Positions 28,806-43,357 of a DNA stretch of 64,000 bases are shown here, piece after piece. A program made the translations under genes and the position numbers. Every line of letters starts with the position of its first letter. The first letter of the stretch is position 1. The stretch is from a candidate division Zixibacteria bacterium SM23_81 (GTDB lineage Bacteria; SM23-81). Under the pieces are notes generated by a model. The model ran no database searches. It was not told the origin of the DNA and was given only the letters and a program-made list of their open reading frames with translations. The stretch lies in the NCBI GenBank assembly GCA_001304015.1, contig LJUY01000010.1, forward strand, positions 1 through 64,000, given 5' to 3'.

Positions 28806-29744
28806 TTACCCTATCCCTTTCTCCTCGAATAACTCCGTGCTCAAATACCGCTCACCGGTATCGGGCAAGATCACCACGATGAGTTTGCCCTCATTTTCCA
28901 GCCTTTTAGCCACCTCCAGGGCAGCCCAGGCTGCTGCCCCAGAGGAGATTCCACAGAGCAGACCCTCTTCCCTTGCCATTCTTCTGGCCATCTGCGCTGC
29001 ATCTTCGTCCCTCACTGTGATGATCTCGTCGATCAACTCTGGCCTAAGCACGTCGGGCACAAATCCCGCCCCAATTCCCTGGATCTTATGAGATCCCGGG
29101 GAACCTCCGGAAAGAACGGGAGATCCCTCCGGCTCCACGGCAATGGCCCTGAACTCGGATTTTCTCTCTTTGATGACCTCTGCCACTCCGGTAATGGTCC
29201 CCCCTGTGCCCACCCCGGCCACCAGGATATCTACTTTCCCGTCTGTATCGCGCCAAATCTCCTCGGCCGTCGTCTGGCGGTGAATTTTGGGATTAGCGGG
29301 ATTCCTAAATTGCTGAGGCACATAAGAATTGGGAGTTTCCCCAGCGATTTGCTCCGCCTTTTTCACCGCTCCCGACATCCCCTCTACCCCGGGAGTCAGG
29401 AACAGTTGAGCGCCCAAGGCCACCAGCAACCTCCTTCGCTCCAAGGACATGGTATCCGGCATGGTTAAAATAAGCTGGTAACCCCGGGCGGCACACACGA
29501 ACGCCAGGGCGATACCGGTGTTGCCACTGGTAGGCTCCACGATAACCGTACCCTCTTTGATGAGTCCCTTTTGTTCAGCATCCCGAATCATGGACAGGCC
29601 GATCCGGTCCTTTACCGAGGACAGGGGATTGAAGGACTCCAGCTTGGCCACAATCTGTGCGCCAAGCCCTTCCGTCACGCGGTTTAAGCGCACCAAGGGT
29701 GTATTGGCCACCAGCTCGGTGATATCCCGGGCGATTTTGCCCAT
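28806..29744 (-). CDS. cysK: Cysteine synthase (O-acetylserine sulfhydrylase)
   Basis: 312 residues, the usual length. The PLP lysine lies in [11 protein letters not shown], the phosphate cup is [10 protein letters not shown] and the substrate loop is PTSGNTGIA. It makes cysteine from O-acetylserine and sulfide in the cytoplasm. GGAGGAG precedes ATG 29744. It is the last gene of an operon dealing with sulfur relay and oxygen, which suggests cysteine supply during redox stress. A cystathionine beta-synthase core is a close relative, but the length and lack of extra domains favour CysK. Confidence 0.93.
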
Positions 29745-29806: not shown

Positions 29807-30157
29807 TTACTTGGCGCGCAGCATGGTCAAAAACATCTTAAACCGCTGCGGCGCCTTTACGGCATGGGGCACGTCTGCGGGCATGATGACCAACTGGCCC
29901 GCTTCGGCGAATACTGACCGGCCACCGATGATCAGCTCAGCTTCGCCGTCCAGGATCTGCACAACGGCATCAAAGGGGGTCGAATGTTTGCTCAAGCCCT
30001 GCCCCGCGTCAAAGGCGAACAGGGTCATGGTGCCAGCATCATTTTTGGCCAGCTGGCGGCTGACGATGGAACCTGAGGCATATTCGATAAGGCCGGCCAG
30101 GTCTATGGCTTCCCCGGCCGGTATCTGGCCTGCTTCTTTATTGCCAGGTTGGGACAT
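29807..30157 (-). CDS. Small cupin-domain protein
   Basis: 116 residues, one cupin barrel. Motif 1 is reduced ([18 protein letters not shown]) and motif 2 is [14 protein letters not shown], with a His in each as possible metal ligands. AAGGAGG precedes the ATG. Small cupins of this kind often lie beside redox or thiol genes in anaerobes; the substrate is not known. It sits between the flavodiiron and cysK genes and is probably co-transcribed. Confidence 0.85.
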
Positions 30158-30217: not shown

Positions 30218-31408
30218 TCAGGCTTTCTTCGTTGCTTTCCCCACCTCTCGACCAAAGGACCGGCAGGCCTCCAAATCCTCGGCTCGAGGTTGCCACTTAC
30301 ACTTAATTCCCTCCCGAATGACGGGAATCTTGGCCTGATCGAGCTGCTCCTCTATGACCTTGACCCCTTCTCCGCTCCATCCATAACAGCCAAATGCAGC
30401 TCCCAGTTTGTTCTTAAACTTAAGACCTTTCAGATCGTACAGCAGTGGCGCGATAGTAGGCAGAACGCTGTTGTTCAGAGTTGGCGATCCGACGACGACT
30501 GTTTTTGCCCGAAACACCTCTACCAACAAGTCATTGCGATCGGTCACCACGGCATGCAAGATCTTGTGATCTACACCGACATCTGTCAATCCATCGCCGA
30601 TGGCCTCCGCCATCCTCCGAGTACCATCCCACATCGTATCGTAGATGACGACTGCCCGCTGCTCAGGTCTCTGAGCCGCCCATTCCTGGTATTTTTTTAC
30701 GATCTGCAGAGGATCCTTTCGCCAGATAATCCCATGACTGGGACCAATCATATCCACGGGTAGGCTCAGGGCGAGAACCTCATCGATCTTCTTGGTCACC
30801 AGGTCGCTGAAGGGAGTTAATATGTTGGCGTAATATTTGTGAGCTTCCTCGTAGAGCTCCCCTTGGTCAACTTCATCGTTGAACCGATACGCTGAGGCAT
30901 AATGCTGGCCAAAGGCGTCGTTTGGCAATAAGATATTGTGTCCGGTGAGGTAAGTGAACATGCTGTCTGGCCAATGCAGCATAGGCGCTTCCACGAATAT
31001 CAGCTCGTTCTGGCCGATGGAGATATTATGGCCCGTTTTCACCGCCCGAAACTTCCAGGGCTGATGAAAATGACCCTCGACGCTCTCAGCCCCGCGCTGG
31101 GAAACCACCACGGTTGCGTTGGGCGCGTGTCGCATAACCACCGGCAGGCCTCCTGAGTGATCCACTTCGGCATGGTTGGCGACTACGATGTCGATTTTGG
31201 ATGGGTCAATAATCTGGCGGATGTTCTCCACCAGCTGATCCGCAAAGGGACCCCACACTGTATCCACCAACACGGTCTTTTCATCCCTGATAAGGTAAGC
31301 GTTGTAAGTAGTACCTCGATGCGTGGACAGCTCGTAACCGTGAAAGTGCCGTATCCCCCAGTCGACAGCTCCTACCCAATAGACGTTCTTCTTTACTTCC
31401 GCGATCAT
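30218..31408 (-). CDS. fprA: FprA-type flavodiiron protein (copy 1)
   Basis: 396 residues. The beta-lactamase-like half carries the diiron ligands (HAEVDHSGGLP; a His in LHWPDSMFTYL; SHGIIWR). The C-terminal half is a flavodoxin fold (VIYDTMWDGTRRMAEA; SPTLNNSVLPTIAPLLY; CYGWSGEG). Flavodiiron proteins reduce oxygen to water or nitric oxide to N2O in the cytoplasm of anaerobes. Its ATG overlaps the stop of the IscS-like gene (ATGA). A paralogue lies at 36317-37522. Confidence 0.93.
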   Translation of the reverse strand: MIAEVKKNVYWVGAVDWGIRHFHGYELSTHRGTTYNAYLIRDEKTVLVDTVWGPFADQLVENIRQIIDPSKIDIVVANHAEVDHSGGLPVVMRHAPNATVVVSQRGAESVEGHFHQPWKFRAVKTGHNISIGQNELIFVEAPMLHWPDSMFTYLTGHNILLPNDAFGQHYASAYRFNDEVDQGELYEEAHKYYANILTPFSDLVTKKIDEVLALSLPVDMIGPSHGIIWRKDPLQIVKKYQEWAAQRPEQRAVVIYDTMWDGTRRMAEAIGDGLTDVGVDHKILHAVVTDRNDLLVEVFRAKTVVVGSPTLNNSVLPTIAPLLYDLKGLKFKNKLGAAFGCYGWSGEGVKVIEEQLDQAKIPVIREGIKCKWQPRAEDLEACRSFGREVGKATKKA

Positions 31409-32577
31409 GACTGGTCCCCCTTATATAATGGCGATAGTATTCTCAGTCGTTCGATTGTCTCCTTAACGGCCTTTGTGATGAGAGGGATTTGTTTCATGGT
31501 GTTTGAGCGACCCAGGGTTATGACCATCGACCCATGAACCTCCTCGTGTTTCAATCCCAAGGCCAAGAGCACATGAGAAGGCTCTAGCGTCTTCGAGGAG
31601 CATGCTGACCCTGTGGAGACCTGAATATTGTACCCCATATCCATGTTCAACACGATGCTCTCACCCTCTATGCCGCTGAAACGAAAACTGACATGATGTG
31701 GAAGCCTCTGAGCGGGATGGCCGGTGAGATAGGCCTGGTCGATTTTCTGTATCTCCTCAATAAGCTTGTTCCTTATCGTTTTAAGCCTGTTAGTTTCCTG
31801 CTCCATCTCGTCCTTCGCGATCCTGGCCGCCTGACCCATTCCAGCAATGGCGAAGATGTTCTCCGTGCCCGACCTGAGCCCGCGCTCCTGTCCGCCACCG
31901 GGAAGGACGGTTTGCAGCTTGATGCCCTTCTTGATATACAACGCCCCAGCCCCTTGGGGTCCGTAAAGATCGTTCGATGACAGGGTCAGCAGGTCAATTC
32001 CATCTTTTTGCACATCTATGGGGATACGCCCAGCAGCCGCTGTGGCATCAACATGAAAATAAAGCCCTCTTTGGTGCACGATTTCGCTGATCTCCCCGAT
32101 GGGTTCGACGGTCCCGATTTCGTTGTTGGCGTACATGACGGATGTCACCGTGGTCTCTTGGCTGACCATCTCAGAGAGTCTCTCCGCCGAGACGATGCCG
32201 GTCGCATCCACCGGTATACGGTTCAGCTGGAAGCCGCTTTTCTGCAGCTCCTTCATGGGATTGAGGACGGACATATGTTCTATTGCGCTGGCGCCGATCT
32301 CTTTCCCCTGCGCCATATTCCTCACAGCGGCCCCCTTGATGGCCAGGTTGTTCGCTTCTGTTGCTCCGCTGGTGAAGACAATGCATTGCGCCTCTTCAGC
32401 GTTGATGAAGTCGGCGATCTTTCCCCTGGCCTCTTCCACGACCTTTTTGGCCTCTGAGCCTACCGAATGGGTGGATGAAGGGTTGCCGAACCCTTTTCGC
32501 AGAAAAGGTTCGGCAAACTCCCACACCTTAGGATGGATGGGCATCGCGGAGGCGTGATCTAAGTATATCGCTTCCAT
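31405..32577 (-). CDS. Cysteine desulfurase-like protein (IscS/NifS family) lacking the PLP lysine
   Basis: 390 residues, with full-length IscS/NifS alignment: YLDHASAMPIHPKV, FTSGATEANNLAI, IEHMSVLNP (H101), and the catalytic-loop Cys326 in STGSACSSKTLEPSH. In the PLP site, the SxHKxYGPxG motif reads SSNDLYGPQG: His becomes Asn202 and the Schiff-base Lys becomes Asp203. The PLP-contacting Gln after HVDAT is Ala180. Without the lysine, normal desulfurase chemistry should fail. From memory, Archaeoglobus fulgidus IscS also has Asp at this position and shows no desulfurase activity. The frame is intact and the gene sits in a tight operon with TusA and DsrE, so it is not a decaying copy. Confidence 0.88.
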   Translation of the reverse strand: MEAIYLDHASAMPIHPKVWEFAEPFLRKGFGNPSSTHSVGSEAKKVVEEARGKIADFINAEEAQCIVFTSGATEANNLAIKGAAVRNMAQGKEIGASAIEHMSVLNPMKELQKSGFQLNRIPVDATGIVSAERLSEMVSQETTVTSVMYANNEIGTVEPIGEISEIVHQRGLYFHVDATAAAGRIPIDVQKDGIDLLTLSSNDLYGPQGAGALYIKKGIKLQTVLPGGGQERGLRSGTENIFAIAGMGQAARIAKDEMEQETNRLKTIRNKLIEEIQKIDQAYLTGHPAQRLPHHVSFRFSGIEGESIVLNMDMGYNIQVSTGSACSSKTLEPSHVLLALGLKHEEVHGSMVITLGRSNTMKQIPLITKAVKETIERLRILSPLYKGDQS

Positions 32578-32598: not shown

Positions 32599-32961
32599 TT
32601 AAAACCACATGGTTGTCCCTGCCTCCAGGGCAAGATCGTTCAGAGTCGCAGCACCTACGATTTTGACATCTGGTATCAGGTCCACTTTGTCCCAACCCAA
32701 CATCTGCTTGGATGCCTCACAGACTAAGATCTCAATTCCCATGTCCAGTGTTTTCTTCATCAGCTCCATAACGGAGGGAAAGGATCCCAGCTTTATGTTA
32801 TCGGCTGCACCCGGCTTCAGTATTTTCAAGCCTTGGCCCAAATAGTAGATTTTTGGATTGAGATCCATAGCCTTGGCCGTCTGGGCCAACACCAGAGGAG
32901 AATACTGCCTCTCTGGCTCGTCGCTGGTCTGCACATAGAGGATTAACTTTTCGTCTTTCAT
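32599..32961 (-). CDS. DsrE family sulfur-relay-like protein
   Basis: 120 residues in a DsrE/DsrF-like fold: LILYVQTSDEPERQYSPLVL, KIYYLGQGLKILKPG, MGIEILVCEAS, ending LNDLALEAGTTMWF. Cys81 in ILVCEAS lies where DsrE-type proteins carry the sulfur-accepting cysteine. It probably receives persulfide sulfur from TusA or a similar donor in the cytoplasm. It lies between the tusA-like and iscS-like genes, with short spacing. Confidence 0.85.
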   Translation of the reverse strand: MKDEKLILYVQTSDEPERQYSPLVLAQTAKAMDLNPKIYYLGQGLKILKPGAADNIKLGSFPSVMELMKKTLDMGIEILVCEASKQMLGWDKVDLIPDVKIVGAATLNDLALEAGTTMWF

Positions 32962-33039: not shown

Positions 33040-33282
33040 TCATTTCGTCTTTCGTATCAAGAAGGTCAAGATTGGCCCCTCTTTTTCTAACTTCAAGATC
33101 TCATTCCCAGTCCTCTTGGCCCATCGTTTGATATCCTCCTCCGCCGCAGGATCATCCGCCTCCACCTTTAACACCTGCCCTACATCGATCTGGTCTATTT
33201 TCTCCTTGGTCATAAAGATCGGCATGGGGCAGTAGAGGCCAACACAATCCAACTCAGCATCAGCATTGATGTCCAAATCCAT
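33040..33282 (-). CDS. TusA/SirA family sulfur carrier
   Basis: 80 residues with the hallmark CPxP (CPMP, Cys18) preceded by Cys13, then a betaalpha layout closing LKLEKEGPILTFLIRK. TusA carries a persulfide on this cysteine and hands it to DsrE-type partners. AAGGGGG precedes the ATG. Together with DsrE and the IscS-like protein it makes a complete-looking sulfur relay, except that the upstream desulfurase lacks its key residue. Confidence 0.92.
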   Translation of the reverse strand: MDLDINADAELDCVGLYCPMPIFMTKEKIDQIDVGQVLKVEADDPAAEEDIKRWAKRTGNEILKLEKEGPILTFLIRKTK

Positions 33283-33562: not shown

Positions 33563-34057
33563 CTACGGTCCCACGTGCATCATGGGCCACTGTGAATCGT
33601 AATCCTCGAATTTTTTGGCATTATCCCTCTCAATCTCAAGGATCTTGTAGTGTCCCAGCTCCATGGACGCGATGTATAGAAGCATTTTTTTGACATCTGG
33701 TTGCTGATCGTATCTATCTGCTAACCTATTGTAAAAATCATGAGCGGCTAGCTCCGCCTCCATGGCGCTCTCCAGAATTTCACTGAGAGGCATATTCTCT
33801 GCATCTATCTGAATCTGAGGCAGGGGAACAGGGCTCTCCTGCGGTAATGTCATCTCCTTATGGGGGAAGCTCTTTTTATAAAGCCGCTCAAAAAACCTTC
33901 TATGCTTTTCTTCCTCTCCTGCCAGGAAGTTCAACCTTTCCTTCAAAATGAAGTTCTCCACACCCTCGGCTAATTGCGAGTAGGCCACTTTAGCCTCAAT
34001 CTCGCTCTTCAACGCCGTCAGCATCAGATCCTCAACGCTGTAATTGCTTAATTCCAT
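33563..34057 (-). CDS. Ferritin-like (rubrerythrin-family) diiron protein
   Basis: 164 residues, all helical, with paired ferritin-like motifs: SEIEAKVAYSQLAE with EEEKHRRFFERLY, and AMEAELAAHDFYNRLAD with ASMELGHYKILEIE. These give the E...ExxH pairs of a diiron four-helix bundle. There is no rubredoxin domain. Such proteins reduce peroxide or store iron in anaerobes. AAGGAGGGGG precedes the ATG. It lies second after the ferredoxin in the Rrf2 operon. Confidence 0.87.
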   Translation of the reverse strand: MELSNYSVEDLMLTALKSEIEAKVAYSQLAEGVENFILKERLNFLAGEEEKHRRFFERLYKKSFPHKEMTLPQESPVPLPQIQIDAENMPLSEILESAMEAELAAHDFYNRLADRYDQQPDVKKMLLYIASMELGHYKILEIERDNAKKFEDYDSQWPMMHVGP

Positions 34058-34100: not shown

Positions 34101-34877
34101 TCAGCTTGTGGCCGTTGCCGCTTGGCTTCGCTCCAATATCTCACCTCGGATGCCGACCTTGGTCAGGACCAGAGGAATCTCCTTTCCAGAATCTCGCAGG
34201 GCCGCTTGTACCAGCTGTACCAAGCCAAAACAGCAGGGCACCTCCATATGGGCCACTTCCACCATTCGAATGTCATTCTGGCGGAATATCTCCGAGAGCT
34301 TCCGGCGATAGGCCTCCATATCATCCAGCTTGGGACATCCCACTACCAGCGCACGACCTTTCAAGAACTTACGATGGAAATCTCCATAGGCGAAGGGAAC
34401 GCAATCGGCGGCGATGAGCAAGTCGGCGTCCTGAAAATAAGGAGCATTCACCGGGACCAAATGAAGCTGTACCGGCCATTGGCCCAGTTGTGTAGCTATC
34501 GCTCCGGTTTCTTCTGCGGCCGCAGACGGGGATGTTCCCTGGCGCTGGAGCACCTGAGACGCGGAACCCGGACAGGTGAAGTCACATGCTGGAGTCTTCG
34601 ATTTAGGCTCCCAATCTGGAGTGGTCTTCTCCTCAAGGAAAGACTCGAGATGCTTCTCGACGGCCCCCTCGTCAAAGGCATCTGCCTCCCTCGTCTCGAT
34701 TGTCAAAGCACCTTGCGGACATTCCCCCAGGCAAGCACCCAAGCCATCACAGTAAACTTCGCCCACCAGCTTGGCCTTGCCGTCGATGACCTGGATAGCT
34801 CCCTCAGCGCAGGCTGGAACGCACAGTCCACAGCCATCACACCTCTCCTCGTCGATCTTGATAATCTCTCTACGCAT
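34101..34877 (-). CDS. Ferredoxin-domain (2x 4Fe-4S) redox protein
   Basis: 258 residues from ATG 34877, six bases after AGGAGG; two further in-frame ATGs upstream overlap the ribosome site itself. The N-terminus has CDGCGLCVPAC (C13, C16, C19, C23) and YCDGLGACLGECP (C43, C49, C53), a dicluster ferredoxin with a modified second motif. The C-terminal 150 residues have extra cysteines (AADCVPFAY, VVGCPKLDD, VPCCFGL) and probably bind another cofactor. The start overlaps the rrf2 gene by eight bases. The electron partner is unknown; the flavodiiron protein in the same operon is a plausible acceptor. Confidence 0.85.
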   Translation of the reverse strand: MRREIIKIDEERCDGCGLCVPACAEGAIQVIDGKAKLVGEVYCDGLGACLGECPQGALTIETREADAFDEGAVEKHLESFLEEKTTPDWEPKSKTPACDFTCPGSASQVLQRQGTSPSAAAEETGAIATQLGQWPVQLHLVPVNAPYFQDADLLIAADCVPFAYGDFHRKFLKGRALVVGCPKLDDMEAYRRKLSEIFRQNDIRMVEVAHMEVPCCFGLVQLVQAALRDSGKEIPLVLTKVGIRGEILERSQAATATS

Positions 34878-35301
34878 CAACATCCTCCTGACCATAAACG
34901 TCAGTTAACTCAGACAACTTCATTCCCTCTAAATAGGCTCGATACCGGTTGTTCGTGGTCAACAAAAGATCGCCGAAAATGCATTGCGCGCCGCTACATA
35001 TAGGAGTTTCAAAAAGACACCTGTTAGATGTAAGGGGGCCGTCAATGGCTTCATATACCTCCAAAAGGGTAATTTCATCGCCCTTTTTTCCTAGCGCAAA
35101 ACCCCCTTTCGGTCCTCGGCTTGACCTGACCAGACCCACTCTAGCAAGTCGCTGCAGTACCTTTGACAGGTGAGCCTCGGAAACGTGAAGAGCGGAGGCA
35201 ATCCCCCTTACCGAGAAAATCGTTTCCGGCTTTGAGGCCAACAAAGCCATTGAATGCAGCGCCAGCGAGGCTGCCTCAGAAATGTGCATCACTTTCGGCA
35301 T
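34870..35301 (-). CDS. Rrf2 family redox or iron-sulfur sensing repressor
   Basis: 143 residues. A winged helix-turn-helix occupies about 30-60 (FSVRGIASALHVSEAHLSKV), with the wing SSRGPKGGFAL. Three cysteines (C95, C102, C107) lie in the cluster-binding loop, the layout of IscR/NsrR-type Fe-S Rrf2 proteins. It heads the operon and has a palindrome over its own -10 region, so it probably represses itself and the downstream sulfur and oxygen genes until its cluster or thiols react. The signal (NO, oxygen, persulfide or Fe-S status) cannot be read from sequence. Confidence 0.9.
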   Translation of the reverse strand: MPKVMHISEAASLALHSMALLASKPETIFSVRGIASALHVSEAHLSKVLQRLARVGLVRSSRGPKGGFALGKKGDEITLLEVYEAIDGPLTSNRCLFETPICSGAQCIFGDLLLTTNNRYRAYLEGMKLSELTDVYGQEDVDA

Positions 35302-35546: not shown

Positions 35547-36308
35547 TTAGCTTTCGGGCGAAAATTGATCCTTGCCGGCTCCACAGACCGGACACACCCA
35601 TTCGTCCGGCAGAGCATCGAACTCGGTCCCCGGGGCGATGTCGCCGTCCGGATCTCCCTGGGCGGGATCGTAGACATAGCCGCACACTTCGCAGATATAC
35701 TTCTGCATCCCTTCCCTCCTCTTCTCTGGTTTCAGTTCCTTTTTTTCGATGTGACCTCTGTAAGTTGGGGCATTCTTCGAGGCCTTGCCCTTCTTCACCT
35801 CATGGTAATGGGCGTACGTCAGGGGCTTTCCCTTACGCAGCCTCTCAGCACGTACCACCTGACCCACAAATATGGTGTGTGTGCCCGCATCGCACTGATC
35901 GATGACCTTGGCTTCGAACACCGAGATGACGGAATCGGTGACCAGAGGACAGCCGGTGATGCCCTTCTTGTACTTGCACATGGCCAGTTTATCGACATCC
36001 CGACCCGACTTGAAGCCGAACAGCCCAATCAACTTCATGGGTGTAGATTCATCCAGAACCGAGACGCCGAACTGGCCACTTTTGACGATGTACTCGTGGG
36101 TCAGATTGTTCTTGGAAATGGCCACTGCAACCCGGGGAGGCTCCGCTGTAACCTGCATGCATGCATTGGCTATCTGGCCATTTAACCTTTCCCCGTCGTG
36201 GGATGAGACGATGTAGAGGCCATAGCTCCAATCGAAGAGCGCCGTGAGATCCACTTGGCCCGTTGCGATGATCACCCTCCTTGTTATAAGATCCCCTTCA
36301 TAGGACAT
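35547..36308 (-). CDS. hrb: High-molecular-weight rubredoxin: flavin reductase domain fused to rubredoxin
   Basis: About 253 residues. The start is uncertain: TTG 36320, ATG 36308 or a later codon near [12 protein letters not shown]; no site is convincing. The first 170 residues are an FMN-binding split-barrel flavin reductase ([20 protein letters not shown]). The end is a rubredoxin with two CxxCGxx knuckles ([31 protein letters not shown]). The same fusion partners FprA in Moorella-type acetogens, moving electrons from NAD(P)H to the flavodiiron protein. Here it directly follows fprA copy 2, matching that pair. Confidence 0.88.
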
Positions 36309-36316
36309 TGACTTCG

Positions 36317-37522
36317 TCAAGAAGACACTTTGCCCAGCTTTTCAGCCACCCTGGATCCCAGGGAAAAGCATTCGGCCAGGACAGACTCATCTGGCACGTA
36401 CTTGACTTTCAAGCCATCGCCTATTAGATCGATCTTCATCTCAGCCAGCACTTCCATCACTTGTCCCACTGCCTCTCCACTCCAGCCGTATGAGCCGAAG
36501 GCCGTGCCCATGAGATTTTTGGGCTTCAATCCCTTTAGATAAGCCAGAGTGCCAGCCACCGTGGGAAACATGTTGTTGTTGATGGTCGGAGATCCCACCA
36601 GAAGAGCGCCCGCATCCAGAACCTCGGTGACCACCTCGCTGCGATGGCATGATTCCAGGGGCATCAATTTCGTCATCGTCCCGCCAGCCCTCAGCCCCTC
36701 GGCGATGGTTCTGGCCATCAATGCGGTGCTCTGCCACATGGTGTCGTATACCACCACGGCCTTATTGGTCGGTCTCTGAGCAGCCCAGGTGGCATACAGC
36801 TTTGGCATCCTGCTCACTTCTTTCCGCCAGATGGGCCCGTGGTCCGGGGCTATGGTCTCGATGGTGATGCCCAGTCCCTTCACCCTTTCCAGAAGCTTGG
36901 AGACGAGTGCAGAAAACGGCAACAGAATGTTGGCATAATACTTGGCCGCCTCATAGTTCAGAATCCAATCCTCAATCTGGTCGGCGAACCGCTCGCTGGA
37001 GGCCAGATGCATTCCAAATGCGTCCTGGGAGAAGAGCAATTTATCCTCGGCCAGGTAGGTGACCATGCTGTCGGGCCAGTGAAGCATGCGAGTCTCCAAG
37101 AAGGTGAGGTTGAGGTTCCCAAGGCTGAGGCTTTCCCCGTCCTTGACCTCGGAGATCTCCCGGTCCAGGTGAAAATGTTCCTGCAAAGCCTTAGTTCCCA
37201 TGACAGAGGCGAATACCTTCTCGGGCTTCACCGCCTGAATCGCCTGGGGCAGGCATCCAGAGTGGTCCATCTCGGAATGGTTGGAGATGATGTAGTCGAT
37301 CTTACGGGGATCGATGACCGAGGCTATCCGGACCAACATCTCCTCTAGGAAAGGAGCTTTGACCGTGTCCACCAGGGTAACCTTATCCGCAAGAATCAGG
37401 TAAGCATTGTAAGTCGATCCCCGATCCGTGGCATAGCCGTGAAAATTTCGAATGCTCCAGTCGATGGCTCCCACCCAGTAGACGCGGTCGTTCACCTGCG
37501 TCGCTTGGAAATATGTTTTCAT
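36317..37522 (-). CDS. fprA: FprA-type flavodiiron protein (copy 2)
   Basis: 401 residues. Diiron ligands lie in [22 protein letters not shown] and [10 protein letters not shown]; the flavodoxin half has [30 protein letters not shown] and SYGWSGEA. It reduces oxygen or NO using electrons from the fused rubredoxin-reductase encoded next. It is a distinct paralogue of copy 1 at 30218-31408, which sits in a different operon, so the two are probably used under different signals. Confidence 0.93.
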
Positions 37523-37544: not shown

Positions 37545-38042
37545 CTATGGTTTCAGAGAGGTCAATTGGTTACTCAAAATGGTCACGTGTCTCATCTCCT
37601 CCTTGATCACGTCGTCGATCTTGTTCCTGCCCAACCTCTCCGGCACCATCTCCCGGATGCCCTGATAAAAGACGATGGAGTCCTTCTCCAACCCCAGGGC
37701 CGTTCGGTAAATCTCCTCCAGGGTCTCTTTTCCGGTGAGCTTTTCGCTGGGATCCGTCTTCACGTCGAAGACATGTCCATCGGCCATGGCTCGCAAGTAC
37801 ATGGCGGCTTGACCCTCGGGATCGAACATCTCCCAGCCACGATCCTTATCCGGCAGATTGGCTCTCATGTTCGAGAAAATCTTGAGGTGCTGGTCTTCCC
37901 AGGAAGCCAGATTGAGCAGTGTATCGCGTGTCCCAGAACCTTCAAATCCCTCAGCTGCCTTGCGGTAGAACTTGGCGCCATTTCTCTCGATCTGTTCGGC
38001 CATCTCGAAGATCTCGTCAGCATTGAACTCGACACCCATCAT
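37545..38042 (-). CDS. Rubrerythrin-family ferritin-like protein without rubredoxin domain
   Basis: 165 residues, helical, with ferritin-like diiron motifs: [19 protein letters not shown] with [13 protein letters not shown], then [15 protein letters not shown] with [15 protein letters not shown]. This is the rubrerythrin diiron core with no C-terminal rubredoxin. The start overlaps the ferritin stop by four bases (a second ATG follows the first). It probably reduces peroxide or handles iron, in one transcript with ferritin and superoxide reductase. Confidence 0.87.
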
Positions 38043-38560
38043 TCGCCTCCTTCCTCTGCCGCAGGTGGAGTGAACACACGCTGACCCAGCTCCCGATCAA
38101 TCATAAACATCCCTCCCCCTTCCTTGCCCACCATCTTGAGTTTCTGCACGACATCATCAGCGGAGGCCTCTTCCTCCACCTGCTCGGAGACGAACCACTG
38201 GAGGAAATTCTGGGTAGCGTGGTCTCGCTCTGTGATGGCCAAATCCACCAGGCTGTTGATCATGCCAGTGACCTTCTGCTCGTGTTTGTAGACGGTTTGG
38301 AAGGCGGCCAAGGGCGAAGACCAATTGGTGGCCGGTTTCTCTATGGCGCTTACCAGGATCCTGCCACCGCGCTCGTTGACGAAATCGAAAATCTTCATGG
38401 CGTGGGTTGATTCTTCCATGGCCTGCACGCGCATCCAGTTGGCGAAACCTCCAAAACTGATCGAATGAAAGTAAGCGGACATTGACAGATAGAGATATGC
38501 GGAATACAGCTCCGCCACGATCTGCTTATTGAGTGCTGTTTGCATCTTCTTGCTCAGCAT
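38039..38560 (-). CDS. ftnA: Non-heme bacterial ferritin
   Basis: 173 residues, the usual FtnA length. Ferroxidase-site residues are visible in [16 protein letters not shown] and [14 protein letters not shown]. Ferritin stores iron and removes Fe(II) that would react with peroxide. It is four bases after the superoxide reductase gene and overlaps the next gene, so all three are likely to be made together. Confidence 0.93.
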
Positions 38561-38564
38561 GGCA

Positions 38565-38939
38565 TTATCCTTTCCATAAACCGTGAAGATTGCAGTACTC
38601 CCGGGCCGTTACCTGATCTGCCTCGATGCAGAAGGTGGCCTCGGGCACTCCCCCTGGCTTTAAAAACTGACGGTAGGTCTGGCCATCGGCGATGACCTGG
38701 ATCCACTCGATGTAGTGCTGCGCCTCCATGGGATGAGCCACACTCCCCACCTTGACCTTAAAGCCATCGGCGGTCTTCTCCACCACGGGCACGTGCTTCT
38801 CCTTGGCCGCGTCCACCGTGTTCTCGACATAGAGCTTCATGGGCTTTCCGCAGCAGATCATCTGCCCGGCGCCGCCGTGGAGCATCTCCACGATATTGCC
38901 GCAGGTTTCGCATTTATAGACTTGCATTTTCTCAGTCAT
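38565..38939 (-). CDS. dfx: Desulfoferrodoxin (two-centre superoxide reductase)
   Basis: 124 residues. Centre I has C10, C13, C29 and C30 (CETCG; MICCGKP). Centre II has the EKHVP lysine-glutamate pair with H49, then H69, H75, C116 and H119 (EYCNLHGLW), the square-pyramidal iron site that reduces superoxide to peroxide. GGAGGAG precedes the ATG. Peroxide made here would go to the catalase and rubrerythrins encoded nearby. Confidence 0.95.
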
Positions 38940-39275: not shown

Positions 39276-40787
39276 TTATTTCTCAGTGGCCTTTATTCGA
39301 TCCTCCTGGGTCATCTCGGCCAAACCCTGAACCTCTTTGACGTCCAACCCGATCCCTGTAGCCACGCGACGACCGTAGTCCTCATCGGCTTTGCCAAACA
39401 GCGCTGTCTGGCGCAGCTGAATGTACTTCTGGGCATTGCCCAGGTGACCCACGATGTTGCCGATCAGGTGGTCGCGATCCTCATCGGTCATCACCTTCCG
39501 ATAGAGATCTCCGGCCTGTACGAAATCGTCATCGGTCAGGGCCTCTGGATGGCGAGCAGCCATTCCTGAGACCTCGAATGGCGGTTCGGCCACGTTGGGG
39601 TCTGGCACAGGACCACCGAAGCTATTGGGATTGTAATTCGGGCCACCTCCGCTGTTGCCATCAACGCGCATGAAACCATCTCGCTGGTAATTGTTCATGG
39701 CTGAGGCCTTGGGTGCGTTGATGGGCAACAGATGATAGTTGGGTCCCAGGCGATACCGGTGAGCATCGTGGTAGGCGAAGATGCGCCCCTGAAGCATCTT
39801 GTCCGGCGATGCAGCCATGCCGGGGACGAAGTTGCCCGGAGAGAAAGCAGCCTGTTCCACCTCGGCGAAGTAGTTTTCCGGATTGCGGTTTAAGACCATG
39901 CGTCCCAATGGCATCACAGGAAAATCGCCGTGGGGCAAAACCTTGGTGACATCGAACGGGTTGAAGCGATATGTCTTGGCCTGTTCGGGTGTCATGATCT
40001 GTACCTGCACATTCCAAGCGGGGCCATCGCCTCGCTCGATGGCATCGAACAGATCCCCGGTGGCATGGTCGGGATCCTTGCCGGCCATGAGTTCTGCTTC
40101 CTGGTTGGTAAAGTTCTGGATGCCCTGGGCTGTCTTGAAATGAAACTTCACCCAGACATACTCTTCTTTGTCGTTGTACCACATCAGGGCATGCCCGCTA
40201 TAGCCGTTCATGTGGCGGTAGCTCTTGGGTGTGCCCCGATCGGAGAAGAGAATGGTGACCTGGTGTATGGACTCCGGGGTCAGGGAGAGGAAATCCCAGA
40301 ACATGTCAGGATCTTTCGCGTTTGTGCGGGGATTCCGCTTCTGGGTGTGGATGAAGTCGGGGAACTTAATCGGGTCCCGAATGAAGAAGACCGGCGTGTT
40401 GTTACCCACCATATCCCAGTTGCCCTCCTCGGTGTAGAACTTCACCGCGAATCCCCGGGGATCGCGCGCCGAGTCGGCCGAACCCTTTTCGCCACCGACG
40501 GTGGAGAATCGAGCGAAGACCTCAGTTCGCTTGCCCACCTTTGACAGAAATTTGGCCTTGGTGTACTTGGTCAAGTCGTGAGTGACCTCGAAATACCCGT
40601 GAGCACCCGCTCCCTTGGCGTGCACCACGCGCTCCGGGATGCGCTCCCGGTTGAAGTGAGCCAGTTTTTCGAAGAAATGGATGTTCTGGATCAAAACAGG
40701 TCCAGGGGAACCAGCGGTCATGAGTTTCTGGTCGTTATCCACCGGTTGACCGAAGTTTCTGGTGAGGGTCTTTTTCCCCTTTGCCAT
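39276..40787 (-). CDS. katA: Monofunctional heme catalase
   Basis: 503 residues from ATG 40787 (GGGAGG eight bases upstream; an ATG at 40796 is in frame), a small-subunit catalase. The distal His is in [33 protein letters not shown] is the signature, and the proximal heme Tyr is in [15 protein letters not shown]. It splits hydrogen peroxide. A heme catalase beside superoxide reductase and rubrerythrin shows an organism that meets oxygen although its other defences are of the anaerobe type. Confidence 0.95.
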
Positions 40788-40901
40788 CTGAAACACCTCC
40801 CTCTACTTAGAACTAGAATGGAGACCTTTGGCCAGGCGCCATTTTAGCTATTTGTTCCCCGATCCCAATGAATTTCTCTTCATTCACAAGAGAGTTTTCC
40901 C

Positions 40902-41474
40902 CTACCAGTTCTCACACAGCAGCTCGAAGTGAGCCTGAGGATGGGCACAGGCTGGACACAGCTCCGGGGCCTCTGAGTCCTCATGTAGATAGCCACAGTT
41001 GAGGCAGCGCCAGACAACCGGCTTGTCCTTCTTGAACACCGTCTCCTGTTCCACGTTGGCCAACAGTCCCAGGTAGCGTTTCTCGTGCTGTTTTTCCGCC
41101 ACGGCTATGGCCCGGAATATGGCGGCTATTTCGTCGAAACCCTCCTCCTCCGCCACTTTTGCGAAGCCGGGATACATATCCGTCCACTCGTAGTTTTCCC
41201 CGGCTGCGGCCTCCTTCAGATTCTCCGCGGTGGTGCCGATGACACCTGCCGGAAAGGAGGCCTGAATTTCAGCCGTTCCGCCCTGAAGCTGCTTGAAGAG
41301 CCTCTTAGCATGCTCTCGCTCCTGATTGGACGTCTCCTCGAAGATGTCGGCGATCTGCCGATATCCCTCCTTTCTAGCTTGGCTAGAGAAATAGCTATAA
41401 CGGTTCCTGGCCTGTGACTCGCCGGCAAAGGCGGTCAACAGGTTTTTCTCGGTTTTGGATCCCTTCAGAGCCAT
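40902..41474 (-). CDS. rbr: Rubrerythrin
   Basis: 190 residues from ATG 41474, which follows AAGGAGGAG by four bases; a start at 41513 would overlap the preceding gene. The ferritin-like half has [29 protein letters not shown] and [15 protein letters not shown]. The rubredoxin-like end has [10 protein letters not shown] and [15 protein letters not shown]. It is an NAD(P)H-dependent peroxidase of the cytoplasm. It begins two bases after the permease stop, so it is in the same transcript as the metal exporter. Confidence 0.95.
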
Positions 41475-41475
41475 G

Positions 41476-42762
41476 TTACTCCTCCTTTTTTGAGGTGCTT
41501 TGTTGTTCTTCATCTACTTTCTCGACCCTATAGCCGATGTTCTCAACACCTCTCCGAAGCGCGGGGATGTCGAGATTCTTCCCTTCGACACGGGCTTTAC
41601 CTTCCTTAAGGTCCACCACCACAGATTGAACGCCGGGCCCCTTGCTGAGCACACGATGCACGCTTTGCACGCAGTGGTGGCAAGTCATTCCCGAAATCGA
41701 AAGAGTCACCATGGGACCCTCCCTGCTAGATGACGTGATCTGCGCCGGCCCGCGAACGGAGAACCAGATGGCAGGCCCCAACACGGCAAGCAAGATGAAA
41801 GCGCAGATAGTTTTGACGAAAGCCGGTATCATCCCAGGCATGCTGGGCGCAGCCGAACCACCTCGGGCGGTGAATATGTAATCCAGAAACAGGCCCGCCG
41901 CCAAAGCAGTGATGGCGACGGTGGTTAAATAGATAACGGCGGTCCTGCGGCCCATAATCTTCCAGGTAGTGGTGATGGCGGCGGCATTTGTGGCTGGCCC
42001 GGTCATGAGGAACACCAAGGCGGCGCCGGGGGACACACCCTTGGCGATGAGAGCCGCTGCCACTGGCACCGAGGCCGTTGCGCACACGTAAACGGGTATG
42101 CCCAAGAGCATCATGACCAGCATAGCCCCTATGCCAGCCCCAAGCACCCCAGAAAGGTAGTCATCAGGGATGATGGCGGATATGAAACCCGCTATGACCA
42201 GTCCGATCAACAAAGCCTTGCCGATGTCCCGAGGGAGTGTCACAAAGCCATAACGAAGAAGCCGAATCACTCTGCCGCTCCGGTTCACATTCGTGCAGCA
42301 TTCGTCCTCACAGCTGGGCACACCGTTCCCCCCTTTCTCAGCCTCAGCCGGCTGAAAAAGGGTCACCAAGGAACCGCCCACGAGCCCTGTGAAAAAGGCA
42401 GCCAGGGGCCGGAAAACGGCGAAGACGGGCCCGAGCAGACTGAAGGTTACCATAATGCTGTCCACGCCCGTCTGGGGGGCCGAGAGAAGAAATGACGTTG
42501 TCGCACCCCGTGAGGCCCGATGTCTGTGCAGAGATGCCGCCACTGGTATCACACTGCAGGAACAGAGGGGCAAAGGTATGCCGAAGATGGTGGCCTTCAC
42601 CACCGGCCATATGCCCCGCCCCCCCAGATGTCGTTCCACCATCTCTGCCGAGAGGAGCACCGAAAGTGTTCCCGCGAAGAGAAAGCCAAACAACAGATAT
42701 GGAGCCATCTCGCTGAGCACAAACCAGAATTCTGTGGCAACATTTATCAAAAGTTCTAACAT
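41476..42762 (-). CDS. SO_0444-type Cu/Zn efflux permease with C-terminal heavy-metal domain
   Basis: 428 residues from ATG 42762 (GTG 42777 is in frame). The permease (DUF318 type, eight or more helices) has the two signature stretches [16 protein letters not shown] with SAPQTGVDS, and [19 protein letters not shown] with [11 protein letters not shown]. The last 70 residues are an HMA domain with GMTCHHC (CxxC), which would bind Cu or Zn. It likely exports soft metals. Placement with rubrerythrin and PerR fits metal stress coupled to oxidative stress. Confidence 0.9.
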
Positions 42763-42877: not shown

Positions 42878-43294
42878 TCACGCGGCTTCGTCTCCACCCT
42901 CCTCATCCTGACACCGGGGACAGACGCCGATGAATTCCAGACAGTGACCGACAATCTTATATCCAGTCTGCGCGCTGAGGATCTCTTCAGATAGATTCAG
43001 AGGGTCCAAAGGCAGATCATCCACACGATCACAACGCAGACAACGGATATGATAATGCTCATCCCTGCAATCGTCGAACCGCATCTGAGCGCCGCCCAAT
43101 TGTACTTTTCTGATCACTCCAGATGAAGTGAGTATTTCCAGATTGCGGTACACGGTGCCCAGACTGATGTGTGGCACCTTCCGCCGAACCATCTCGTAAA
43201 CCTCATCGGCAGTGGGATGGCAATGGAGGTCATTCAATGCTTCCAGAATGGCCTTTCTCTGGCGGGACATCCGTAACTTCTTGTTCGAAAGCAA
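42878..43294 (-). CDS. perR: PerR-like Fur-family peroxide regulator
   Basis: 138 residues from a TTG at 43294, five bases after GGAGG; ATG 43306 would place the ribosome site inside the gene. The regulatory metal ligands match PerR: His in CHPTADE, Asp in RFDD, two His in EHYH, and Asp (not the Fur-type Glu) in RVDD. Two CxxC pairs (CLRC, CPRC) form the structural zinc site. PerR senses peroxide by oxidising a metal-bound His and then leaves its operators. A 15-base 7-1-7 palindrome covers its own start of transcription. It lies at the head of the peroxide-defence genes. Confidence 0.88.
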   Translation of the reverse strand: MLSNKKLRMSRQRKAILEALNDLHCHPTADEVYEMVRRKVPHISLGTVYRNLEILTSSGVIRKVQLGGAQMRFDDCRDEHYHIRCLRCDRVDDLPLDPLNLSEEILSAQTGYKIVGHCLEFIGVCPRCQDEEGGDEAA

Positions 43295-43311
43295 GTTATC
43301 CTCCATTCTCA

Positions 43312-43357
43312 GAATAGTAATTATTCCTAATATACCTCCCGCTCTCTCATTTGTCAA
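43312..43357 (-). promoter_or_regulatory. perR promoter with 7-1-7 Per/Fur-type box
   Basis: TTGACA (43352-43357), 17 bases, TATATT (43329-43334) on the minus strand. Immediately downstream GAATAATTACTATTC (43312-43326) is a 7-1-7 inverted repeat with one mismatch, spanning the expected +1. This is the normal layout for PerR autoregulation. Confidence 0.85.

Follow-up and report, generated by a model that had tools for sequence, protein, structure and literature searches.

The window, a stretch of 64,000 nucleotides from a candidate division Zixibacteria bacterium (SM23_81), encodes an IscS-like protein, hereafter IscS*, in which the lysine that would bind pyridoxal phosphate (PLP) is replaced by aspartate, and genes for the sulfur carriers TusA and DsrE lie directly upstream of it. 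This arrangement follows a rule, as TusA and/or DsrE genes are found within 1.5 kb of 122 out of 125 Lys-less IscS loci as compared to none out of 82 Lys-bearing ones. With moderate confidence we consider IscS* to be dead as a desulfurase, probably free of PLP, and to be a protein of the Archaeoglobus fulgidus type that under oxygen stress relays persulfide from TusA and DsrE and assists in cluster assembly. More tentatively, and with somewhat less than even confidence, it is proposed that many anaerobic archaea and bacteria possess a PLP-free ISC system, in which sulfur would pass from TusA and DsrE via a Lys-less IscS to IscU without cysteine desulfuration as part of the defence against oxygen stress, the lysine having been lost and the linkage gained up to three times. 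The protein type itself was already known and what is added here is the operon rule. A search of the open-access literature, subscription papers excepted, retrieved no paper naming TusA, DsrE and IscU together and none giving the rule, though an earlier notice of the linkage is possible.

The gene and the residues that matter for its function are the following:

31405..32577, minus strand: IscS*, Lys-less IscS-like protein of 390 residues, ATG start, no internal stop, PF00266 at 253 bits
32275..32277, minus strand: His101 (His104 in E. coli IscS), PLP-stacking position, kept (80/80 in the clade sample)
32038..32040, minus strand: Ala180 in place of Gln183, the PLP-O3' ligand of E. coli IscS
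31969..31980, minus strand: Ser200-Ser201-Asn202-Asp203 at the place of SxHK, Asp203 for E. coli Lys206 and Asn202 for His205
31600..31602, minus strand: Cys326, the persulfide-loop cysteine (E. coli Cys328), invariant in 82/82

The first-pass annotation had described an intact gene with Asp in place of the PLP lysine, which is what the sequence contains (residues 200-203 are encoded by TCA TCG AAC GAT), albeit on the minus strand; read from the plus strand the same coordinates are full of stops. His101 and Cys326 are present in the translation, as stated there, and so is Asp177. The loss of a histidine next to the lysine also stands but its designation as stacking residue does not, since the lost residue corresponds to His205 of E. 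coli IscS and the stacking histidine is His101. Missing from that annotation was a third change among the PLP ligands, the replacement of Gln183 by Ala (HVDATAAAG), found in 78 of 82 clade proteins with Asp in the other 4, a count in which Ala was in part selected for, by one of two search patterns used. IscS* thus differs from the canonical IscS and NifS proteins, as it has neither the Schiff-base lysine that defines the SxHK motif of cysteine desulfurases nor the neighbouring histidine nor Gln183, but shares with E. coli IscS (PDB 1P3W; 3LVJ with TusA; 3LVL with IscU) the fold, the loop cysteine and most pocket residues. Homology in fold to the cysteine desulfurases IscS and NifS is evident from the PF00266 match and from a Foldseek search with an AlphaFold model (mean pLDDT 81, below 50 in the Cys loop), which returned A. 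fulgidus structures (4eb5, 4hvk) as the top five matches and E. coli IscS also among the top matches. None of the NCBIfam equivalog cut-offs for desulfurases is reached, the best score being 429 bits for TIGR03402 (NifS) against a cut-off of 530.75. The substrate-binding arginine proved unsuitable as a marker of the Lys-less type, being variable in Lys-bearing IscS proteins too.

IscS* is not a unique oddity. Scanning the genome collection with the motif region, using peptide patterns that excluded the Lys site and one of which included the Ala, yielded 188 relatives and 80 loci. According to the record titles the bacterial carriers are WOR-3, Zixibacteria, Cloacimonadota, Aminicenantes, Desantisbacteria, Krumholzibacteria and Desulfobacteraceae, and the archaeal carriers Methanosarcinales, Methanocellales, Thermoplasmata, Bathyarchaeota, Hadesarchaea and others. 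In the clade sample of 82 proteins (from the 80 loci, from the window and from L042, L042 and L097 being one and the same gene) not a single one has Lys at the PLP site; 67 read SSND, the remainder SCND, SSNN, SGNQ, SSNQ, SSNE, SSNG, SGNA, SSTD or SSSD. In two trees the SSND group, to which 4EB5 and the window protein belong, forms one clade apart from Lys-bearing IscS (SH-aLRT 99). A second Lys-less clade comprises L013, L014, L023 and L025 (SAQQ, AAQT, APHR, SASS), a third one L151 and L250 (TAHL, ASHT). Both adjoin IscU and mostly TusA/DsrE, L025 being an exception in which TusA and DsrE are both missing from the surrounding 1.5 kb. At loci L157-L161 and L250, L251 of these extra clades the Lys site is occupied by Gln, Thr, Arg or Ser, and by Leu or Thr. 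The best tree contains three Lys-less clades, each linked to TusA/DsrE, and requires three changes, but the starred branches force no more than one, and independent loss of the lysine is therefore likely from the phylogeny, not proven. In an independent-pairs test of Lys loss against the TusA/DsrE link the events were too few for significance. In one Hadesarchaea genome (G089, L109), a draft that may be incomplete, a search for class I/II desulfurases at E 1e-20 matched only the Lys-less IscS.

The gene order at IscS* loci is nearly always TusA-DsrE-IscS*-IscU. In a first sample TusA and/or DsrE were located at most 1.5 kb from 86 of 88 Lys-less loci and from none of 46 Lys-bearing loci. As this sample was partly motif-selected, with the 1.5-kb radius fixed, the count was repeated by means of an ordinary protein search in 196 genomes of Halobacteriota, in which TusA/DsrE were near 36 of 37 Lys-less and 0 of 36 Lys-bearing IscS genes, even though 20 of the latter 36 are paired with IscU. 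The pooled totals given at the outset count loci and not distinct genes, since the samples have a few genomes in common and, owing to overlapping loci, a few genes were counted twice within them. The first-pass annotation had suggested looking for shared TusA-DsrE synteny among homologues, and the outcome is thus strongly positive. Moreover, TusA is found at 75 and DsrE at 65 of the 80 IscS* loci (mean 12 kb), while 20 neighbourhoods of normal IscS genes from the same genome set (mean 15 kb) served as matched control and contained 0 TusA and 0 DsrE. The CPxP cysteine of TusA (76/76), the cysteine of DsrE (67/67) and the loop cysteine of IscS* (82/82) are invariant in these operons, as are all three cysteines and the aspartate of IscU. 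It is this retention of all residues that handle persulfides and clusters, alongside the loss of those for PLP, that at the level of sequence mainly argues for a relay, and the linkage suggests that Fe-S clusters are built without cysteine breakdown. At the IscS-TusA interface IscS* has Arg or Lys at the place of E. coli Glu49 and its TusA has Asp or Glu at the place of Arg31, a charge swap that is suggestive only, since Lys-bearing IscS proteins vary there too.

In the window, the operon belongs to an oxygen-defence island. All genes between 43357 and 28806 share the minus strand and are listed here from upstream to downstream:

42878..43357, minus strand: Fur/PerR-type regulator, by reading; homologues near 19/80 IscS* genes
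40902..41513, minus strand: rubrerythrin, by reading; homologues near 28/80 IscS* genes
39276..40796, minus strand: catalase, by reading
38565..38939, minus strand: superoxide reductase (desulfoferrodoxin)-like protein (SOR), by reading; homologues near 28/80 IscS* genes
38039..38560, minus strand: ferritin, by reading
36317..37522, minus strand: second flavodiiron protein, by sequence similarity to the first
35547..36320, minus strand: flavin reductase-rubredoxin fusion
34870..35301, minus strand: Rrf2-family regulator with three closely spaced cysteines (CLFETPICSGAQC), rrf2_super above cut-off
34101..34895, minus strand: 2x[4Fe-4S] ferredoxin-domain protein, recurs in IscS* loci
33563..34057, minus strand: rubrerythrin/ferritin-like protein, recurs near IscS* genes
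33040..33282, minus strand: TusA, CPxP Cys18 invariant in 76/76
32599..32961, minus strand: DsrE-like sulfur carrier, Cys81 invariant in 67/67 in homologous loci
30218..31408, minus strand: flavodiiron protein (FDP), its ATG overlapping the IscS* stop by 4 nt, at the place of IscU in most relatives
29807..30157, minus strand: cupin-domain protein
28806..29744, minus strand: cysteine synthase CysK, above cut-off

In addition, a permease gene follows the PerR-type gene and a rubrerythrin-like gene lies between ferritin and the second flavodiiron gene. TusA and DsrE (33282-32599) directly precede IscS*, and the earlier description of a gene between DsrE and flavodiiron genes under an Rrf2 regulator proved accurate, with the Rrf2 gene five genes upstream. 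The spacing of the three Rrf2 cysteines is as in the Fe-S-sensing IscR and NsrR types, in line with which they might serve as cluster ligands. The island contains two flavodiiron paralogues, the one at 30218-31408 translationally coupled to IscS* and the other at 36317-37522. A gene for oxygen defence is present at 41 of 80 IscS* loci (mean 12 kb), about half of the loci having none in the available flanking DNA, as compared to no SOR, rubrerythrin or FDP and two PerR-type genes in the 20 neighbourhoods of normal IscS.

The window operon has no IscU gene, its place being taken by the flavodiiron gene. The adjacent IscS- and IscU-type genes that characterise an MIS system are found in most relatives but not in the window, and IscU is likewise missing from the operons at L079, L080, L090, L100 and L110. 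Among these, L100 (Krumholzibacteriia) mirrors the window, with FDP, rubrerythrin-like, ferredoxin-domain, TusA, DsrE, IscS* (SSSD) and Rrf2 genes. G002, a genome of the same phylum as the window, has the order NfuC-TusA-DsrE-IscS*(SSNN)-IscU. A second, normal IscS, which the first-pass annotation had proposed to look for, does exist in the window genome (SGHK, contig G000:C18, near ThiE and MnmA), and a stand-alone IscU is encoded together with Nfu on contig G000:C75. In a weak tree based on few columns the nearest sequence to this IscU is an IscU partner of a Lys-bearing IscS, which does not support its being the split-off IscU of the operon. Since the operon is devoid of IscU and the C75 IscU resembles the partner of a Lys-bearing IscS, the acceptor of IscS* in this genome is uncertain; the genome is 93% complete and a second IscU may have been lost from the assembly. 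Two divergent NifU_N proteins (L045 on G000:C62, L041 on G000:C87) are each clustered with genes that, by reading, are DUF89-like and dinitrogenase-iron-cofactor-like.

The closest solved sequence to IscS* is A. fulgidus IscS (4EB5, E 1e-128), which with 4HVK shares the SSND motif, the Gln-to-Ala change, the kept histidine and loop cysteine, about 52% identity and membership of the same clade. The statement in the first-pass annotation that this protein has the same Lys-to-Asp change and lacks desulfurase activity agrees with the SSND seen in its sequence and with the literature, which attributes the inactivity to the replacement of Lys by Asp (PMC7585200). A D199K mutant has been deposited as 4R5F. 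A. fulgidus IscS provides a cysteine ligand to a [2Fe-2S] cluster on IscU (PMC7585200; PMC5176006). The A. fulgidus genome in the collection (G208, 100% identical to the crystallised sequence; loci L212, L213 and L282) contains two IscS genes, both SSND, one in a TusA-DsrE-IscS-IscU and the other in a DsrE-IscS-IscU operon. The DsrE upstream of the crystallised copy has 94 residues and a frame that starts late and may be truncated. In the complete A. fulgidus chromosome a Lys-bearing cysteine desulfurase was not found, the third class-V hit being transaminase-like. The archaeal system thus differs from that of the window, in which IscU is not adjacent, a flavodiiron gene is found instead and a normal IscS is encoded elsewhere in the genome.

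How could an IscS that is unable to take sulfur from cysteine, the puzzle posed by the A. fulgidus protein, contribute to cluster assembly? The operon rule offers TusA/DsrE persulfide as the source of sulfur. In the proposed mechanism DsrE and TusA would bind sulfane sulfur through their cysteines and transfer it to Cys326 of IscS*, the loop of which would then pass the sulfur to a U-type scaffold and could transiently ligate the forming cluster there. This scaffold would be IscU in most relatives, and in the window genome either the IscU encoded elsewhere or another acceptor. As the operon lies in an oxygen-defence island, IscS* likely serves to make or repair Fe-S clusters under O2 or NO stress. 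The first-pass annotation had considered a function as cluster scaffold, but since the operon in relatives usually ends in IscU, gene order makes it more likely that IscS* is the partner of the IscU scaffold. To our knowledge, sulfur flows from IscS to TusA in the only known IscS-TusA pair, and the reversed direction proposed here is without precedent. The parts of the relay do have precedents, as in E. coli TusA and IscU occupy separate binding sites on IscS (PMC2854127) and an archaeal DsrE3A hands a sulfur group to TusA (PMC4175335). If the relay exists, cells under oxygen stress would have a way of making Fe-S clusters that does not depend on cysteine, and many annotations as cysteine desulfurase in anaerobes would have to be read differently.

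Alternatively, IscS* could be purely structural, its cysteine serving as cluster ligand on IscU, with sulfur arriving as free sulfide and TusA and DsrE serving another reaction to which they are linked by regulation. The A. fulgidus protein, inactive as desulfurase and with its loop cysteine at the [2Fe-2S] cluster, would fit such a role (PMC7585200; PMC5176006), and the hosts are anaerobic organisms that may have ample sulfide. This explanation is nevertheless unlikely, as TusA/DsrE are near universal at Lys-less IscS and absent at Lys-bearing IscS in the same genomes, and the linkage recurs in three Lys-less clades of the best tree. A docking or regulatory subunit for TusA/DsrE outside Fe-S assembly, for example in tRNA or cofactor thiolation or in persulfide disposal under oxidative stress, would account for the window and the other IscU-less operons, in which TusA-DsrE-IscS* forms the core, and for CysK and two flavodiiron genes adjoining the window operon. 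Yet an IscU with all ligands adjoins in most loci and the window genome keeps an IscU in trans, which renders this possibility quite improbable.

It could also be imagined that IscS* still is a PLP enzyme of low or altered activity, holding PLP non-covalently or through another lysine. The conservation of the PLP-ring contacts His101, Asp177 and Asn151 and the phosphate contact Thr73 in the relatives fits a remaining pocket ligand and counts against a PLP-free relay. However, the only lysines retained in roughly 90% or more of the relatives, Lys109 and Lys343, are outside the pocket-motif segment and were rejected as replacement, Gln183 and His205 are lost too, and inactivity has been reported for A. 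fulgidus IscS, which carries the same change (PMC7585200), so that residual PLP chemistry seems very improbable. For a sequencing error hiding the lysine, named in the first-pass annotation as what would overturn its claim, or for a decaying pseudogene nothing was found in favour. As Lys codons are AAA and AAG, two base changes are needed to arrive at GAT, and Asp occupies this position in scores of further genomes, SSND being the motif in 67 of 82 relatives from genomes other than that of the window and Lys in none. The reading frame is intact, and nonsynonymous divergence from relatives amounts to some 0.14-0.18 per site, whereas the synonymous sites are saturated, indicating strong purifying selection; both possibilities can be regarded as refuted.

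Some other known systems resemble the one described here in part. The minimal Fe-S system MIS consists of MisS and MisU (Garcia et al., as cited in PMC12442378) and like most IscS* relatives pairs an IscS with an IscU homologue, but IscS* operons have TusA and DsrE joined and the lysine lost, and the window operon also lacks IscU. The Hdr-linked dsrE-tusA clusters of sulfur oxidisers similarly have TusA and DsrE side by side with their reactive cysteines, whereas in IscS* operons no Hdr or sulfur-oxidation genes were noticed and the links are to IscS*/IscU and oxygen defence. Methanosarcina acetivorans IscS1 (MA0808) is likewise reported to be without the catalytic lysine, and its gene cluster also contains IscU1 and four genes that have no known function (PMC7585200). 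With an IscU1 of about 24 kDa and an STGSACFS loop it resembles the L151/L250 clade (Lys to Leu or Thr) rather than the SSND clade and would belong there. In L250 and L251 the stacking histidine is replaced by Asp.
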